Below are positions 5,838-22,837 of a stretch of 50,947 nt of DNA, one piece after another. Origin of the DNA: Nitrospira sp. (GTDB lineage Bacteria > Nitrospirota > Nitrospiria > Nitrospirales > Nitrospiraceae); assembly GCA_035968315.1 (NCBI GenBank), contig JAVYIN010000005.1, positions 1,037,501-1,088,447 of the forward strand, in the 5' to 3' direction. Positions within the stretch are counted from its first letter, which is position 1, and every line of letters starts with the position of its first letter. Below the pieces are notes generated by a model. It searched no databases. It saw nothing but the letters and a program-made list of their open reading frames with translations, and was not told the DNA's origin. Both the position numbers and the translations under genes were made by a program.

Positions 5838-7412
5838 TCAGGCCACTTGCCGCTTTGACGCCTCATAGGTTGCCTCACCGGCCTGCACGGCTTTTTTCGG
5901 TTCCCGGCCCCGGACGCGATGCATTTTGTCCCTGGTGTGATAGGGCAACAGCCCTTCCAAGACGGCCGGCAGCTTGTCACAGGGCACATCCTCCATAATC
6001 TTGATGGCCAGTTTCGGATCGGGCCCTGACCGCCCGCCGACGAAAATATCCACCGCCTCGACGACTTTTCCGTCGATCTTGGCCTTCTTCCCCAAGAATC
6101 CGACATCCGCGACCAGGTGATTGCCGCAACTGGCCGGACATCCTGACCAGTGCATGGTGATGGGCTTCAGCGCTCCGCTAAGCCGTCCCTCCAGCGCATT
6201 GGCCACCTCAACGGCCCGGCTCTTGGTTTCAATCACCGCCAGGTTGCAATAGTCGTTGCCGACACAACTCACCAGTCCCCGATAGAGCGCCGAGGGATTG
6301 TACGCGAACTGCTTCAGCAGCGGCTCTTCCGCCAGTTCGCCGATCTTCCTGTCGCTGATGTTCGTCACGATCAGCGCCTGCCCCGGAGTGATGCGCACTT
6401 CTCCGGTCCCGTACTTCTCGGCCAGGCTGAGAATCTTCACCAGATCATCCGCCTTCAGGCGCCCCACCAGCACTTTCAGCCCGACGTAGTTCATTCCCCG
6501 TTGCCGTTGACGAAAAATCCCGACGTGATCGGCCTCGCCCATCTTCCGCGCATCGGCGCCGGCCGGCGCCAGGCGCTTGCCGACCCGGGCTTCGACTTCG
6601 GCTCGGAACTTGGCCCCCCCCCAGTCCTCGATCAAAAACGCGAGCCGCGCCTGCGTGCGATTCTCCCGCGGCCCGTGATCCCGGTAGATCTCCAGCACCG
6701 CACGGCACAGGTCCAGTGCGTCGGCCGGATTGACGAAGACATCCAGCGGACTCGCAATCCGGTAGCCTCCCGATCCAAGCTTCCCGCCCACCAGCACATT
6801 GAACCCGAGGCACCGGTCATGCCCCAAATCGTAGTAGGCCGGAATCAGCGCCAGATCCTGCGTCTCCATGTGCACGCAGTTGTGCGGACAGCCCGTGACC
6901 GCCACGTTGAGCTTCCGCGGCAAATTGGAATAGGCCGGATTGCCGAGGATGTCGTCGTTGATCGCCCGTACGAGCCCGGACGTTTCAACCACCTCGTCGG
7001 GGCTCAGTCCGGCAACCGGGCATGTCATCACGTTTCGCACGTTATCCATGCCCGTTTGCAGCGACGTGAGCCCCACCGCCTCCATCTTGGCAAACACCGC
7101 CGGCACATCCTCGATCGTGATGTGCCGGAGCTGGATTTGCTGTCTCGTCGTCAGATCGAGCAGACCATTGCCATACGTGGAGGCAATCTCGGCCAGCGCC
7201 CGCAATTGATACGTGGTCGCATGCCCGCCGGGAATCCTGACCCGCACCATGAAGAACCCCGGCGTCGGATTGCGCAAGAACAGGCCATACCACTTGAGCC
7301 GCTGGACATCGCCCTCGGAAATCGACTCCCATCCCGTCGTCGCATAGCGGGCAATCATCTCCCCCACGGCCAATCCATCGCGCTCGGTCTTTATCGCCTC
7401 GATCTTGTTCAT
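5838..7412 (-). CDS. nirA: Assimilatory siroheme nitrite reductase
   Basis: A 524-residue nitrite/sulfite reductase family protein that would reduce nitrite by six electrons to ammonium, probably with ferredoxin. The start is the ATG at 7412, with GGAGG 7 nt upstream; a longer frame back to 7535 overlaps cynS and is not used. The C-x5-C...C-x3-C set that holds the 4Fe-4S/siroheme centre is complete: C383, C389 (SCVGNDYC), C425 and C429 (SGCPASC). Two ferredoxin-like half domains (about 45-110 and 300-360) match the family, and there is no diflavin domain. Context with nirC, cynS and glnA supports nitrogen assimilation rather than sulfite reduction. It is downstream of the nirC leader attenuators. 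Confidence 0.9.
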   Translation of the reverse strand: MNKIEAIKTERDGLAVGEMIARYATTGWESISEGDVQRLKWYGLFLRNPTPGFFMVRVRIPGGHATTYQLRALAEIASTYGNGLLDLTTRQQIQLRHITIEDVPAVFAKMEAVGLTSLQTGMDNVRNVMTCPVAGLSPDEVVETSGLVRAINDDILGNPAYSNLPRKLNVAVTGCPHNCVHMETQDLALIPAYYDLGHDRCLGFNVLVGGKLGSGGYRIASPLDVFVNPADALDLCRAVLEIYRDHGPRENRTQARLAFLIEDWGGAKFRAEVEARVGKRLAPAGADARKMGEADHVGIFRQRQRGMNYVGLKVLVGRLKADDLVKILSLAEKYGTGEVRITPGQALIVTNISDRKIGELAEEPLLKQFAYNPSALYRGLVSCVGNDYCNLAVIETKSRAVEVANALEGRLSGALKPITMHWSGCPASCGNHLVADVGFLGKKAKIDGKVVEAVDIFVGGRSGPDPKLAIKIMEDVPCDKLPAVLEGLLPYHTRDKMHRVRGREPKKAVQAGEATYEASKRQVA

Positions 7413-7503
7413 CCTGTCCTCCGTCCAGCCAGGCCTCTGTCTGTTATGAAGGGTGGGCTCCCTGCCCATCCCGCTCAGTCTGTCTCCTGCTGACGCGCTC
7501 TTC

Positions 7504-7944
7504 TTAGAATGTCTTGTACTCCAGCCACTTGCCATTCAGCGTGATCTTGCACCGGGCCTCGCCCTGGCTTCCGGTCACTTTTTCCATATCCAGCGTGAAA
7601 TCGATCGCGCTCATGATCCCGTCGCCGAACATCTCGTTCGCCTGTTCTCGCATCGAATCGCCATAGACCCCGATAATTTCCAGCAGCCGGTATTTGAAGG
7701 GATCCGTGGCGTTCGGGAAATCCGCTCGCACCGGAAACCGGCTCAACGACGCGGTTAACTCGTCATCCAGCCCCAACAGATCGCCGACTTTTCTGGCTTC
7801 GTCGGCCGCAAGCTTGTGATTACCCTGCAGCGCGGCCGCCACAAAAGTCGGGTTCTTGCCCACCACTTTGGCCACCTCGGCAATCGTCACCTTCTTGGCC
7901 AGCCGCTTCTCCTTAATCGCCTTCCGAATGTCATCCTTCGACAT
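7504..7944 (-). CDS. cynS: Cyanate hydratase (cyanase)
   Basis: A 146-residue cyanase, full length for the family. It converts cyanate and bicarbonate to carbamate, which decays to ammonium and CO2. The N-terminal helix-turn-helix-like domain covers residues 1-75. The catalytic residues R86, E89 and S112 are all present, in YRLLEIIGVYG and DGIMSAIDF. AAGGAGAG precedes the ATG. It sits between nirC and nirA, 48 nt after nirC and 91 nt before nirA, so the three genes form an operon supplying ammonium from nitrite and cyanate. Cyanate use by Nitrospira has been reported, and this gene fits that. Confidence 0.96.
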   Translation of the reverse strand: MSKDDIRKAIKEKRLAKKVTIAEVAKVVGKNPTFVAAALQGNHKLAADEARKVGDLLGLDDELTASLSRFPVRADFPNATDPFKYRLLEIIGVYGDSMREQANEMFGDGIMSAIDFTLDMEKVTGSQGEARCKITLNGKWLEYKTF

Positions 7945-7992: not shown

Positions 7993-8823
7993 TTACGACC
8001 GCGCCACCACCGGCGATACCGGCACCGCCACCGGGGCGGCCTCCACCTCCGCGACTCGATAGGGGCTCACCAGCCAGTAGAGCCCTCCGACAAACAATCC
8101 GCCGCCCACGACATTGCCCAGGACCACGAACAGCTGGTTGTACCAAAACCCGCCCCAGCTGATGCCCGCCCCATGCGGAAGGAACAAGGCCATCCCCAAC
8201 AACGATTGATTGGCGATGCTATGCTCAAACCCCGTTCCGATGAACGCGAAGAGGCACCAGAAGATCAGCAGGATTTTTGCCGCGTCGTTGCTGGTCCGGC
8301 CGGACATCCAGACCGCGAGGCAGATCAGCCAGTTGCAAAGAATGCCTCGGATGAACAATTCCCAGGCCGGCAGCGACATTTTCGCGGCCGCCACTGACCC
8401 GAGGAATTCCGCCGCCGGCCCCTTCGCAAAGACACCGGACTCCGCGATCAGCCAGGCCAGCGCCAGCGACCCGATCACATTGCCGATCCATGACCAGACA
8501 TTGAGTCCGATCACCTGCGGCCAGCTCACACTGCGGGAGAGTCCCCCGATCGCCCCCACCATGTTGTTGCCCGTAAAGAGCTCGGACCCGGCAAACATGA
8601 CCAAGGTGAGCGCAATGCCGAACGAGGCCCCCATGACCAGCTTCACAACCGGCGATCCCGCCGCCACCAACGGCCCGCCGAGGCTGAATATCAACGCGAT
8701 GCCGAATCCGAGATAGACGCCGGCCATCGCCGACAACAGCAGATATCCGCCCGGTGCCTGGTTCAGAAACCCGACTTTCAGTTTCGCCAGATCGGCGATT
8801 CGTTGATGATCTGCGAGATGCAT
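7993..8823 (-). CDS. nirC: Formate/nitrite transporter family channel
   Basis: A 276-residue FNT-family inner membrane protein with about six membrane segments. Family signatures are SELFTGNNM (the first half-helix loop) and NQLFVVLGNVVGGG near the end. The start is the ATG at 8823, preceded by AAGGAGGAG; the open frame continues upstream to 9003, but that part is the attenuator leader and is not coding. Being first in an operon with cynS and nirA, it most likely imports nitrite. Formate or cyanate cannot be excluded. The C-terminal ~20 residues are Ala/Val/Pro-rich. Confidence 0.9.
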   Translation of the reverse strand: MHLADHQRIADLAKLKVGFLNQAPGGYLLLSAMAGVYLGFGIALIFSLGGPLVAAGSPVVKLVMGASFGIALTLVMFAGSELFTGNNMVGAIGGLSRSVSWPQVIGLNVWSWIGNVIGSLALAWLIAESGVFAKGPAAEFLGSVAAAKMSLPAWELFIRGILCNWLICLAVWMSGRTSNDAAKILLIFWCLFAFIGTGFEHSIANQSLLGMALFLPHGAGISWGGFWYNQLFVVLGNVVGGGLFVGGLYWLVSPYRVAEVEAAPVAVPVSPVVARS

Positions 8824-8873
8824 TGGCTCCTCCTTGTTGAGGGTGAAGGCCCGCCGCCGGAGACCCGAATAAC

Positions 8874-8921
8874 ACAAAGGCGTCCTTATTCCCGCCAGGG
8901 AACAAGGACGCCTTTGTCCTT
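8874..8921 (-). promoter_or_regulatory. Second ANTAR-type hairpin and overlapping terminator-like stem in the nirC leader
   Basis: Minus strand: stem AAGGAC/GTCCTT closes the hexaloop AAAGGC at 8921-8904, with A1 and G4. Its loop and 3' arm also form the 5' arm (8917-8898) of a competing 20-bp stem whose 3' arm is 8893-8874, with one G-U pair and the loop TGGC. The tract after the long stem (GTTATT) is poor in T, so termination would be weaker than at the first unit. The expected upstream partner hairpin is only represented by a GC-rich stem at about 8945-8968 with a GAGC tetraloop, without the A1/G4 loop. Confidence 0.6.
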
Positions 8922-8984
8922 CCGTTGAAACACTGTTGCGCCTTAGGCGGGACGGCTCCGTCTCGCCCGGCACGCTGAAAATAA

Positions 8985-9072
8985 AAAGGCGCCCGCCATT
9001 CATTCCTGAATGACGGACGCCTTTGTCCGTTTCCTGTCTCGCATGGACGTTATCGAAGCGCCATTGCCTCGA
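8985..9072 (-). promoter_or_regulatory. ANTAR-type two-hairpin antiterminator with overlapping terminator, nirC leader
   Basis: Minus strand, in order. P1 is TCGAGGC/GCTTCGA with the hexaloop AATGGC (9072-9053). A 22-nt linker follows. P2 is ACGGAC/GTCCGT with the hexaloop AAAGGC (9030-9013). The P2 loop and 3' arm are also part of the 5' arm (9024-9008) of a 17-bp terminator stem whose 3' arm is 9001-8985, with two G-U pairs and the loop AGGAAT, followed by TTATTTT. P2 and the terminator exclude each other. Both loops carry A at position 1 and G at position 4, the hallmark of RNAs bound by ANTAR antiterminators. It should gate nirC-cynS-nirA. Confidence 0.8.
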
Positions 9073-9090
9073 CCCTGTCCATTATTGGGA

Positions 9091-9120
9091 GATGTACCAC
9101 AGCTCCCGGAAACCCGTCAA
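9091..9120 (-). promoter_or_regulatory. Candidate nirC-cynS-nirA promoter
   Basis: Minus strand: -35 TTGACG (9120-9115), an 18-nt spacer, and the -10 TACATC (9096-9091) preceded by TG one base upstream (an extended -10). The predicted start near 9084 is about 12 nt before hairpin P1 of the attenuator. The layout matches the promoter before the attenuator at 18542-18639. Read-through from glnA is also possible, as no terminator is seen between the glnA stop and this site. Confidence 0.5.
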
Positions 9121-9148: not shown

Positions 9149-10558
9149 CTAAATGTCGTAGTACAGATAGAACTCGTACGGGTGCGGCCGCAACCGCATC
9201 GTATCGACTTCCTTGGTCCGCTTATAGCTGATCCAGGCCTCGATCAGATCTTCAGAGAAGACCCCGCCCTTGAGCAGGAACTGATGGTCCTTCTCCAGGT
9301 TGTTGAGCGACTCGTCCAGGCTGCCTGGCATGGTCCTGATCTTGGCCATTTCCTTGGCCTCGAGATCGTACAGATCCTTCTCCGCCGGCTCGCCCGGGAC
9401 AATCTTGTTTTCGATCCCGTCCAGACCCGCCATCAACATGGCGGCGAAGGCGAGATAGGGATTGGCGCCGGGATCCGGGAAACGGACTTCGATCCGCTTC
9501 GCCTTGGGGCTCGGCGAGTACATCGGGATGCGGATGCCGGCCGACCGGTTCCGGCTGGAGTACGCCAGCAACACCGGGGCTTCAAATCCCGGCGTCAACC
9601 GCTTGTACGAGTTGGTCGTCGGGTTGGTGAACGCAGCCAAGGCCGGCGCGTGCTTCAGAATGCCGCCGATGTAATGCAGGCACATCTGTGACACACCCGC
9701 ATACTCCTTGCCCGCAAACAACGGCTTGCCATCCTTCCAGATGCTCTGGTGGGTGTGCATGCCGGACCCGTTATCGCCGAAAATCGGCTTCGGCATGAAC
9801 GTCGCCGTCTTGCCGTGGCGGCGCGCGACATTCTTGACGATGTACTTGTACATCATCATCTTGTCGGCGGTCCGCACCAGCGAATCGAAGCGGATATCGA
9901 TTTCCGCCTGGCCCGCCGTGGCCACTTCATGATGATGCTTCTCAATCGCGATGCCGGCCTTCTCCATTTCGAGCACCATTTCAGTCCGGATATCCTGCTG
10001 GGTATCCGTCGGCGCCACCGGGAAATAGCCTTCCTTGCTGCGGATCTTTCCGCCCAGGTTGAGGCCTTCCTGGCCCATATTCCACACGCCCTCTTCGGAA
10101 TCGATGAAGTAGTAGCCGCTGTGGTTGGTCTGATCGTACCGCGCCTGATCGAAAATGAAGAACTCGGCTTCCGGCCCCCAATAGGAGGTATCGCCGATCT
10201 TCGTGCTCTGCAGATACTTCTCCGCCTTCTGCGCGATATAGCGCGGATCGCGATCGTAGGTTTCCCTGGTGATCGGATCGACCACGTTGCCGATCAGGCT
10301 CAAGGTCGGCACCGCGCAAAACGGATCCATGCAGGCGGTCGCAGGATCGGGCACCACGAGCATGTCGCTGTTGTTGATCGCCTTCCAGCCGCGGATCGAG
10401 GAGCCATCGAGGCCCGACCCGTCCTTGAACAACCCTTCCGTCAACTCGCCGATCGGAATGGTAAAATGCTGCCATGTGCCGATCAGATCCACAAACTTCA
10501 AGTCCACGGCTTGAACTTTGTTCTTCTTCGCATACTCTAACACTTCACGAACGTTCAT
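9149..10558 (-). CDS. glnA: Glutamine synthetase type I
   Basis: A 469-residue GSI enzyme that makes glutamine from glutamate, ammonium and ATP. The length and motifs are standard: the N-terminal beta-grasp ([20 protein letters not shown]), [16 protein letters not shown], and NRSAGIRIP. Tyr397, in [11 protein letters not shown], is at the position adenylylated by GlnE in enteric bacteria, so covalent control of the beta-type enzyme is likely. No glnE is in the window. GGAGGAG precedes the ATG. glnD ends only 52 nt upstream, so glnA probably also receives transcripts from the amtB-PII-glnD genes. Confidence 0.97.
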
Positions 10559-10610: not shown

Positions 10611-13693
<3,083 letters not shown>

Positions 13694-18541: not shown

Positions 18542-18639
18542 CAAAAAAAAACGCCCTCTCGCCCCGATAAGGAGCAGGAGGACGTCATTGTCCGGTTCCT
18601 GAAATCTGAAACCCCGCAGGAAACGTCGTTGTTTCCCGC
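18542..18639 (-). promoter_or_regulatory. ANTAR-type two-hairpin antiterminator with overlapping terminator, amt-cluster leader
   Basis: Minus strand, in order. P1 is a 9-bp stem GCGGGAAAC/GTTTCCTGC (one G-U) with the hexaloop AACGAC (18639-18616). P2 is GGAC/GTCC with the hexaloop AATGAC (18593-18580). The terminator is a 15-bp stem, arms 18585-18571 and 18565-18551, with three G-U pairs, one mismatch and the loop TTATC, followed by nine T. The P2 3' arm shares six bases with the terminator's 5' arm, so only one can form. Both hexaloops have A1 and G4. This should gate the genes for the exported protein, porin, amtB, amtB, PII, GlnD and perhaps GlnA. Confidence 0.82.
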
Positions 18640-19774: not shown

Positions 19775-21547
19775 CTAGCAATTGCGATAGCCGTTCGTGA
19801 TCGGCATCCGCCGATCCTTCCCGAACGCGCGATGGGTGATCTTGATTCCAATCGGCGCCTGGCGGCGTTTGTATTCACTGCGATCGACCAGCGCAATCAC
19901 CCTCGCCGCCACCGCCCGCTCAAAGCCCATCGCCACAATCTCTTCCAGAGACCGATCCTCTTCCACATAGGCCTTCAAAATGGGATCCAGGATCGGATAC
20001 GGCGGCAGGCTGTCTTCGTCTTTCTGGTTTGGCCGCAATTCCGCGGTGGGAGCCCGATCCAGCACGCGTTTGGGAATCACGGCCGAAGCCCCACGGGCAT
20101 TGCGCAGCCGTGACAGGTCATAGACCATCGTCTTCGGCACATCCTTGATCACCGCAAAGCCGCCGGCCATGTCGCCATAGAGCGTGGCATAGCCGACACT
20201 CATCTCGCTTTTGTTCCCAGTCGTTAGCACGAGATGGCCGAACTTATTTGAAAAGGCCATCAGAAAGTTCCCCCGAATGCGGGCCTGGAGATTTTCCTCC
20301 GTCGTATCGACAGGCCGGCCGGCAAAGGACGCCGCGAGCGACTGCCGACAGGCGTCGAAGACCGAAGTGATCGCGATCGTGTCGTACGCCATGTGGAGGC
20401 GGCGAGCCAACTCTGCCACATCCTCACCGCTCTCCTGAGAGGTGTAGGGTGAGGGCATGAACAGCCCCACGACGTTTTCGGCGCCGAGCGCATCAATCGC
20501 GATCACCGCCGTGAGCGCTGAGTCGATGCCCCCGCTCAAGCCGATGACGGCTTTTTTGAATCCATTCTTGCGGACATAGTCCTGCACGCCGAGCACGAGG
20601 GCGTCATAGACCTCTTCCAACTCTTCCCGTGGAGCCTGAAGAGACGGCACCACCCTGGCCCGCTTCGAGGGGGCCGGTAATTTCACCATCACCCGCTCAA
20701 CCACACTGGCCAACTTGCCCCCCAGCGCCTTGGCCCGCCGTTGCGCCATCCGCTGGCGAACCACCGCATCCACGTTCACATCGGCAACCAGAAAATCTTC
20801 TTGAAAGGCCTTTCCCCGTGCAATCACCGTCCCCGTCTGATCGAGCACAAGACTGTTCCCGTCGAACACCAATTCATCCTGCCCGCCGACCGTATTGGTG
20901 TAGGTCACAATCACCCCGTTCTCCCGCGCCCGCGTCGCCAGCATCTGCTCGCGAGTCCGGCTTTTTCCGATCTGAAACGGGGAGGCATTGATGTTGACGA
21001 TCACTTCCGCCCCGGCGGCGGCCAACAAGCGAGTCGGCCCGTCAGGGAACCAAATGTCTTCACAGATATTGATGCCGATCGTCGCCCCGCGAAGGGTCAG
21101 CAACGGCAGCGTCCGCCCAGGGTGAAAATACCGGCTCTCATCGAAAACGCCATAATTCGGGAGGATCCACTTGCTATAACTGGCAACCAGACCTCGTTCG
21201 TTCAACACAGCCGCAGCATTCGACAATTCATGCTGGCCCTCGGCGACCACAGGGCGACGGGTCGCCCTGTCGCTGGCCCGTCCTTGCCCGACATAGCCGA
21301 CCACGGCGAGCAGCCCCCGACAGTCCTTGGCAATCTCATCGAGCGCGCGCAGATTGTCCGCAATGAACCGCGGCTTCAGCAGCAAATCCTCCGGGGGATA
21401 TCCCGTCACCGCCAATTCCGGAAACGCCACGACATCGGCCTTGGCTTTGCGCGCCTCTTTGATCCAGGATTTGATCGCACGAGTATTCCCGGCGATATCA
21501 CCGACGGTGGGATTCATCTGGGCCATGGCCAGCCGAAGGATTTGCAT
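19775..21547 (-). CDS. nadE: Glutamine-dependent NAD+ synthetase
   Basis: A 590-residue two-domain enzyme that amidates deamido-NAD to NAD using glutamine nitrogen. The N-terminal nitrilase-type glutaminase domain has the triad E44 (FPEL), K126 (YSKWILP) and C162 (NICEDIWFP). The C-terminal synthetase domain carries the ATP-binding loop GLSGGIDSALTA. The length is usual for the glutamine-dependent form. It is the last gene of an aroB-ANTAR-nadE run, starting 27 nt after the regulator's stop. Confidence 0.95.
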   Translation of the reverse strand: MQILRLAMAQMNPTVGDIAGNTRAIKSWIKEARKAKADVVAFPELAVTGYPPEDLLLKPRFIADNLRALDEIAKDCRGLLAVVGYVGQGRASDRATRRPVVAEGQHELSNAAAVLNERGLVASYSKWILPNYGVFDESRYFHPGRTLPLLTLRGATIGINICEDIWFPDGPTRLLAAAGAEVIVNINASPFQIGKSRTREQMLATRARENGVIVTYTNTVGGQDELVFDGNSLVLDQTGTVIARGKAFQEDFLVADVNVDAVVRQRMAQRRAKALGGKLASVVERVMVKLPAPSKRARVVPSLQAPREELEEVYDALVLGVQDYVRKNGFKKAVIGLSGGIDSALTAVIAIDALGAENVVGLFMPSPYTSQESGEDVAELARRLHMAYDTIAITSVFDACRQSLAASFAGRPVDTTEENLQARIRGNFLMAFSNKFGHLVLTTGNKSEMSVGYATLYGDMAGGFAVIKDVPKTMVYDLSRLRNARGASAVIPKRVLDRAPTAELRPNQKDEDSLPPYPILDPILKAYVEEDRSLEEIVAMGFERAVAARVIALVDRSEYKRRQAPIGIKITHRAFGKDRRMPITNGYRNC

Positions 21548-21574: not shown

Positions 21575-22837
21575 CTACACACTACGCTTTTCGGCCCGCT
21601 CTTCGATATCGCCGGCAAGCAAAATCGCTTCGGCGATTTCACGCATGGACTTCCGCAAATCCATGCTCTGCCGCTGAATGAGTTTGAAGGCCTCTTCTTC
21701 TGTGAGCCGCTTGGATCGCATGAGGTACCCCTTGGCGCGATCTAAAAGTTTTCGCACGGCGAGGGCTTCCTGCATTTCAAAAGACTTTTCCAGCAAGGTG
21801 GTATGTTCAATGGAAATCGCCGCCTGATTGGCAATGGCTTGCATCAAGCGCACCTCTTCGGACGTAAAGCTGTGCGGAACCGACGTATAACTGTTGATCA
21901 CGCCGATGGCCTTGTCCCGCATCATCATCGGGACAGAGAGCAACGAACACAGGCCTTCCTTCGCGGCCAAATCAGGATACATATAATCCTGCTCTTTGGT
22001 CACGTCAGGCACAATGATCGGCCGCCGCTCCTGAACCACGCGTCCGCTGATACTCTGTCCGGTTTTGAGATGGGGCTTGCGCCGGTACTGCTCACTCAAA
22101 CTCTGAGTCGCCGCAATCTTGAGTTCTCCGGATACTTCGTCCAGCAGCATAATCGAGCAAATTTTCGACCCCAACATTTGAGCGGTCATTGTCACGATCA
22201 ATTGCAGCACGTCATCGATAATCCGGTTGGAGACAACCGTTTCAGACACCTGCGACAACGTCTCCAACTGCACGGCCTTTCTGCGCATTTGATCGTACAG
22301 CCTGGCATTCTCAATCGCACCGCCCACCTGATTGGCAATAGTGGTCAGCAGCGCCAACTCGTCCTCACGATACCGGCGCGCCCGCTTATGCTGCACATTG
22401 ATGACGCCGGTGACTTCCTTCTTGACGAGGATCGGCACCGACACGAATGCCTGATAGCGATCTTCCGGGAGGTTATTGAAAAACTTGAATCGCGAATCTT
22501 CGCTGGCGTTACTGGGGATCACGACACGGGTGCGCTCACGCGCCACCCACCCGGTAATACCTTCGCCTAAGCCGATGGTGATGCGGCCAATGAGACGAGG
22601 ATGGGGGTTTTTCGATGCCCGCAAGACCAACTCATCACGCCCCTCGGACAACAGATAGAGCAGGCACGCATCGGCTTTGGTCACTTCCACGACGACATCG
22701 ACGATATGCCGCAACACCGCCTCAAGATCCAGAGTATTGCTGATCGATTCACTGATGCGATGCAAGACATCCACTTCACGTGTTTTTTCTCGCAAGGCCT
22801 GCTCAAGTTGTGCGGAAGAGAGCTTTTTGCTTTCCAT
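21575..22837 (-). CDS. GAF-GAF-ANTAR antitermination regulator
   Basis: A 420-residue cytoplasmic regulator. After a short N-terminal helix come two GAF sensor domains (about 25-165 and 185-335; for example GRITIGLGEGITGWVARE and SISGRVVQERRPIIVPDV). A C-terminal ANTAR domain follows (about 355-412) with the family pattern LLDRAKGYLM...LTEEEAFKLIQRQSM...MREIAEAIL. ANTAR proteins bind paired hexaloop hairpins and stop terminators from forming. No histidine kinase or receiver domain is present, so the signal should be a small ligand or redox state felt by the GAF domains. It lies between aroB and nadE, about 3 kb from the nitrogen cluster whose leaders carry matching hairpins. Confidence 0.9.
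   Translation of the reverse strand: MESKKLSSAQLEQALREKTREVDVLHRISESISNTLDLEAVLRHIVDVVVEVTKADACLLYLLSEGRDELVLRASKNPHPRLIGRITIGLGEGITGWVARERTRVVIPSNASEDSRFKFFNNLPEDRYQAFVSVPILVKKEVTGVINVQHKRARRYREDELALLTTIANQVGGAIENARLYDQMRRKAVQLETLSQVSETVVSNRIIDDVLQLIVTMTAQMLGSKICSIMLLDEVSGELKIAATQSLSEQYRRKPHLKTGQSISGRVVQERRPIIVPDVTKEQDYMYPDLAAKEGLCSLLSVPMMMRDKAIGVINSYTSVPHSFTSEEVRLMQAIANQAAISIEHTTLLEKSFEMQEALAVRKLLDRAKGYLMRSKRLTEEEAFKLIQRQSMDLRKSMREIAEAILLAGDIEERAEKRSV

Follow-up and report, generated by a model that had tools for sequence, protein, structure and literature searches.

A probable ANTAR-controlled attenuator with two serial units ahead of the nirC-cynS-nirA genes of a Nitrospira

How is transcription of the genes for nitrite and cyanate assimilation controlled in Nitrospira, major nitrifiers for which a literature search found no described mechanism of choice among ammonium, urea, cyanate and nitrite? 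The question is raised by the leader of a nirC-cynS-nirA operon in the 50,947-nt stretch of a Nitrospira sp. genome analysed here (the window). This leader is encoded on the minus strand, flanked by glnA, whose stop is at 9149, and by a nirC-type transporter gene that begins at about 8829. An initial annotation had proposed an extended -10 promoter, a hairpin P1 with loop AATGGC and a hairpin P2 with loop AAAGGC at this place, and all three were confirmed on the minus strand at 9120-8985. We consider it probable (about 0.85) that the nirC leader acts as a transcription attenuator under ANTAR control, within a one-component nitrogen-limitation antiterminator regulon. The following features of the window are used below.

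9092-9120, minus strand: promoter, with -35 TTGACG (9120-9115), an 18-nt spacer and extended -10 TG-G-TACATC (TGGTACAT, 9099-9092)
9052-9073, minus strand: P1 hairpin, 8 bp, GTCGAGGC-AATGGC-GCTTCGAT, hexaloop at 9065-9060
9031-9051, minus strand: P1-P2 linker
9013-9030, minus strand: P2 hairpin, 6 bp, ACGGAC-AAAGGC-GTCCGT, hexaloop at 9024-9019
8978-9024, minus strand: intrinsic terminator 1, stem 9024-8985 and U-tract, then TTTTTATTTT
8946-8967, minus strand: P1', degenerate in the window; can be read with hexaloop GGAGCC, the minimum free energy (MFE) fold favouring a tetraloop
8904-8921, minus strand: P2', hexaloop AAAGGC at 8915-8910, conserved in relatives
8869-8915, minus strand: terminator-like hairpin 2, 18 bp (8915-8876), weak U-tract
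7993-8829, minus strand: nirC-type formate/nitrite transporter (Pfam PF01226), predicted first gene controlled
7504-7944, minus strand: cynS, cyanate hydratase (Pfam)
5838-7535, minus strand: nirA, ferredoxin-type nitrite reductase (Pfam and NCBIfam, the NCBIfam score being just below the curated cut-off)
18552-18638, minus strand: sister attenuator upstream of a porin-amt-amt-glnB-glnD-glnA run (P1 18638-18617, P2 18593-18580, terminator from 18586)
21575-22837, minus strand: GAF-GAF-ANTAR protein, 420 aa, probable antiterminator

Anatomy of the leader

By its anatomy the nirC leader is an ANTAR-target RNA, an RNA device of known kind. Two short hexaloop hairpins follow each other, both loops carry A1 and G4 above a C:G closing pair, and P2 overlaps an intrinsic terminator with which it is mutually exclusive. 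The 5' arm of terminator 1 is the entire P2 loop plus the P2 3' arm, and the two structures therefore cannot coexist. The 17-bp terminator stem of the initial annotation was recovered, with 17 pairs by alignment and 18 in the terminator scan and the MFE fold. Its 22-nt linker depends on where P1 is ended: counting 8 bp for P1 leaves 21 nt, and a shorter P1 leaves 22-23 nt. The loop-to-loop distance between P1 and P2 is 41 nt, a spacing shared by 12 of 27 tallied seed sites. In the MFE fold of the window, P1 is extended by an outer stem between ATGGAC, upstream of P1, and the linker segment GTCCAT; the aligned columns show no conservation of this stem, and it was rejected.

Nascent-chain folding gave P1 and P2 as the first structures formed (-29.0 kcal/mol for an RNA ending at 9013), and the fold changed to P1 plus terminator at 8985 (-51.3). 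The leader is far more stable than its dinucleotide shuffles (z-score -6.4). When the 50.9-kb window was scanned strictly for a pair of hairpins topped by C[ANNGNN]G, with a terminator overlapping the second loop, exactly two places were returned, the nirC leader and the leader at 18.6 kb; 200 Markov-simulated windows of equal dinucleotide make-up returned none. This bears out the earlier view that the nirC leader repeats the plan of the leader at 18542-18639. The promoter was not called by a generic promoter scan; its support is conservation, TTGAC and TGnTA-A being invariant across the leaders of 12 relatives.

A second P2/terminator unit, absent from the initial annotation, was found at 8921-8876 on the minus strand, about 100 nt downstream. 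The covariance model matched 8904-8967 with 27.4 bits (E 6.8e-4 genome-wide), this unit being outside the training set. The terminator scan made no call for hairpin 2 (8915-8876). Since P1' is degenerate in the window and the U-tract is weak, the strength of this second unit is uncertain. Nine relatives have the second unit with a P1' of the form CAGGYC-GTGGCA-GRCCTG, whose loop keeps G4 and has mostly G instead of A at position 1. The Rfam P11 model also recognises the second unit in several relatives, and the G071 leader is devoid of it. Between both attenuators, locus L028 (2824-2945) and eight relatives share a third conserved hairpin, GAGGCTTC-TTCGTC-GAAGCCTC. Its hexaloop starts with T, although G4 and the C:G closure are present.

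The leader was compared with characterised systems. It shares with the eut leaders bound by EutV and the nasF leader bound by NasR the pair of A1/G4 hexaloop hairpins with C:G closure, the overlap of the second hairpin with a terminator and the location before nitrogen genes (PMC7496416, PMC8934654 and main text of PMC3369931). Linkers of eut leaders are 5-12 nt long, against 21 nt here, and the two attenuator units in one leader are unlike both eut and nasF leaders. The regulators also differ, EutV being a receiver-ANTAR and NasR a NIT-ANTAR protein. As judged from the domains of the sole ANTAR protein of the genome, the pattern of NasR or NasS-NasT (a NIT-ANTAR protein, or an ANTAR response regulator with NasS) does not apply.

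The closest plan is that of RF00625 P11 of Pseudomonas, with a P1 loop AACGau, a P2 reading GGAC-AAAGGC-GUCC and an overlapping terminator. Its loop-to-loop distance, counted on the printed consensus, is also 41 nt, which eases the worry that a 21-nt linker breaks the eut rule. P11 differs by an extra hairpin in the linker, and Pseudomonas uses NasS-NasT. The leader is not a member of the P11 family: the gathering score is 70 bits, whereas the window reached 26.9 and no score in the genus exceeded 35.4. In Pseudomonas, P11 is located before nirB. Work by Romeo in 2012 is said to have found the Pseudomonas nirB operon to be controlled by antitermination. An Rfam search of our sequence at gathering thresholds gave 16S rRNA as the sole match, and a plasmid DNA similarity search gave none.

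Conservation and co-occurrence with the ANTAR gene

A failure of close relatives to keep the two hairpins had been set beforehand as one result that would refute the attenuator. In the close-relative set (12 glnA-downstream leaders of the same genus), P1, P2, the terminator and the promoter core were kept in 12 of 12. Over these leaders, 98.7% of the P1 and P2 cells and 100% of the terminator cells were paired, against 25-58% for slid structures; the leaders of G069 and G003 have one P1 mismatch each. Both loops keep A1 and G4, as had been anticipated.

Covariation was analysed on 29 sites, comprising the 12 glnA-downstream leaders and the other sites of those genomes. Seven of the eight P1 pairs vary on both sides, which none of 500 shuffles reached, and P1 covaries likewise when the set is widened to 58 distinct model hits, in an alignment that leans towards the model. 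The four core pairs of P2 are invariant over the 29 sites, so P2 is without covariation support; it rests on loop and terminator conservation. The initial suggestion of selection on RNA structure, with compensatory changes, thus held for P1, the invariant P2 core being uninformative. Among 59 wider hits, which lean towards the model, A1 and G4 were kept in 51 and 53 P1 loops and in 50 and 58 P2 loops, and C:G closure in 54 P1 and 58 P2 hairpins.

A single ANTAR domain was found in the genome, that of the GAF-GAF-ANTAR protein in the same window. Only three sites were found by the covariance model in this genome: the amt-side leader and the two within the nirC leader. The ANTAR gene is present in 14 of 79 genus genomes. 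Covariance-model sites (E<1e-3) occurred in 14 of 14 ANTAR-positive genomes and in 2 of 65 ANTAR-negative congeners, the model (R1) having been trained partly on the tested genomes and the p-values ignoring phylogeny. The two ANTAR-negative genomes with a site are G011 (87% complete) and G019. The G019 genome is 99% complete without an ANTAR gene, and its site (contig C17, 157108-157171, minus strand, locus L091) is strong with a weakened terminator. With no nitrogen gene recognised nearby, it seems to be the remnant of an NAD-synthetase leader that was lost.

Because some of the genomes tested had also served to train R1, the Pseudomonas family P11 was used as independent test. In a P11 scan of the whole 3.1-Mb genome, the nirC leader ranked first and the amt-side leader second. 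Throughout the genus, every P11 match with E <0.009 fell either in G011 or in one of 11 ANTAR-positive genomes. Three weaker P11 matches (E 0.0097-0.027) were located in G008, G041 and G058, genomes without an ANTAR gene.

The regulator and its regulon

The nirC-leader switch is most likely worked by this single sensor protein encoded 12 kb away. Its ANTAR domain could be aligned with those of Rv1626, EutV, NasR and AmiR. The residues of EutV that contact RNA are known (PMC8934654). In the alignment, K143, M172 and R175 are retained, while Y164 is changed to F, N173 to D (as in NasR), R168 to Q and R177 to S. GAF1 is closest to the GAF structures 3e0y and EI-Ntr (PtsP; 3ci6, 2.8e-24) and GAF2 resembles NifA-like GAFs (TIGR01817; 4g3k, 2.9e-9), both likenesses being sequence similarity only, with scores far below the full-length family cut-offs. 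GAF2 also matches NreA, a nitrate sensor, in part and weakly. The protein has neither a NIT nor a receiver domain. Homologues span the phylum, down to 45-48% identity. As of 2012, the main text of PMC3369931 reported no characterised GAF-ANTAR protein, and our literature search found no characterised GAF-ANTAR regulator.

For the wider survey, the surroundings of the ANTAR gene were examined in 80 named loci, of which nearly all are from Nitrospirales. These loci contain 59 sites, 57 of which share the strand of the ANTAR gene. The first identified gene behind a site is an NAD synthetase in 23 cases, a porin/urtA urea-transport operon in 16 (urtA and urtB identities were confirmed by NCBIfam) and a porin-amt run in eight. 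The remaining 12 sites have another first gene or none recognised, one of them (L106) preceding a nirB-type nitrite reductase. In the genus set, further sites were found ahead of an ABC transporter and cynS. A single RNA-binding regulator thus appears to run nitrogen scavenging.

ANTAR leaders before P-II, amt, urea and nitrite genes had already been predicted in many bacteria, and 13 ANTAR elements were predicted in six nitrogen units of Desulfotomaculum acetoxidans (main text of PMC3369931). The D. acetoxidans regulon likewise has many ANTAR leaders ahead of nitrogen genes and more elements than units; it differs in belonging to another phylum and in being known from predictions only. Nitrospira is unmentioned in the main text of PMC3369931, whose supplementary tables may list single sites, as Ca. 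N. defluvii may be among its genomes. No paper found in our search connects the nitrogen genes of Nitrospira with ANTAR or antitermination; PMC12342949 contains neither of the strings 'ANTAR' and 'antiterm', and PMC6606698 does not contain 'antiterm'. New here are the phylum-wide GAF-GAF-ANTAR regulator, the order-wide regulon and the serial double attenuator on a nitrite/cyanate operon. With respect to these the initial idea was incomplete rather than wrong, as it missed the second unit, the regulator and the wider regulon.

Several sites deserve separate mention. The commonest first gene, a glutamine-hydrolysing NAD synthetase (23 sites, in L100, L117, L110, L157 and others), is unexpected in a nitrogen regulon. 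In the window, the NAD synthetase gene (19775-21547) lies directly behind the ANTAR gene, without a site. At L125 (site 12355-12422), genes for a NarX-like histidine kinase and a LuxR-type response regulator intervene before the porin/urtA-like genes. Poor U-tracts were seen at sites of L125, L127, L129, L133, L139, L142 and L144, possibly reflecting attenuator loss or rewiring in comammox-type Nitrospira; L125 is from Nitrospira sp. CG24A, which we take to be comammox. L119 has tandem sites (12368-12425 and 12468-12517, minus strand), the only two of the 59 opposite to the strand of the ANTAR gene, and the nearest recognised gene is more than 1 kb away.

Mechanism, signal and alternative readings

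In the proposed mechanism, the nascent RNA would by default fold into the long terminator and transcription would halt before nirC-cynS-nirA. The active GAF-GAF-ANTAR protein would bind the A1/G4 hexaloops of P1 and P2. Bound P2 would stay folded, its loop and 3' arm would be withheld from the terminator and polymerase would read through. The second P2'/terminator unit would have to be passed as well, giving a tighter off state, and any readthrough from glnA would meet the same gate. Control by the same protein would extend to the amt-side leader; in relatives it would also take in NAD synthetase, nirB and the transport of urea and cyanate.

Two other readings of the structure were considered and rejected. 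It might be merely the intrinsic terminator of glnA, with P1 and P2 incidental: it shares its strand with glnA, lies 29-164 nt beyond the glnA stop and is the only terminator called by the scan between glnA and nirC. This is very improbable given that P1 covaries and the loop rule is kept, that a conserved promoter stands between glnA and P1, that the same plan occurs ahead of genes not located behind glnA and that the presence of the element tracks the ANTAR gene. Hardly better placed is the idea that the leader mainly yields a terminated, trans-acting small RNA. A terminated leader is a short RNA, and there is weak full-length similarity to P11, which Rfam files as an sRNA; however, the element stands in cis beside the first gene of many differing operons, and the P2/terminator exclusivity serves attenuation.

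On the signal, the main rival keeps the same ANTAR device and makes it respond to nitrite or nitrate, i.e. substrate induction. The operon does include nitrite genes, NasR (PMC7496416) and NasS-NasT (PMC3795266) respond to nitrate/nitrite, and the partial NreA match of GAF2 points the same way. We regard this reading as unlikely: sites also precede genes for ammonium, urea and cyanate transport and NAD synthetase, the regulator is without NIT or receiver domain, and nitrite, the constant energy substrate of these cells, would make a poor switch. The predicted shared control of amt, NAD synthetase, urea, cyanate and nirB genes instead makes nitrogen limitation the likely signal of the proposed attenuator. 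The earlier expectation that nitrite and cyanate assimilation answer to the same signal as ammonium uptake agrees with one ANTAR protein and three sites in the genome; binding by this protein, antitermination, and the identity and direction of the signal are the parts that we infer.

The PtsP GAF binds glutamine (PMC4848567) and the NifA GAF binds 2-oxoglutarate (PMC8219145). The likeness of the two GAF domains to these, being one of sequence, may serve as a lead on the signal rather than a test of it. Our guess is that the GAF domains sense the signal as glutamine and/or 2-oxoglutarate, or that it arrives via P-II. A broader proposal is tentative, and we would call it conceivable rather than favoured: the GAF-GAF-ANTAR protein would be the ancestral one-component nitrogen-status regulator of Nitrospirota, its PtsP- and NifA-like GAFs sensing glutamine and/or 2-oxoglutarate directly, antitermination driving nitrogen scavenging and the serial attenuators forming a stringent nitrite/cyanate gate.

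N. moscoviensis has the system, and the regulon, RNA sites and likely regulator can be tested in this cultured species. When it was grown with nitrite as sole nitrogen source and without cyanate, cynS was among its 100 most expressed genes and most of this gene region was strongly expressed (PMC6606698). In a study without ammonium-grown comparison, this fits what is expected of readthrough under ammonium shortage, and the regulon could explain high cyanase expression without cyanate.
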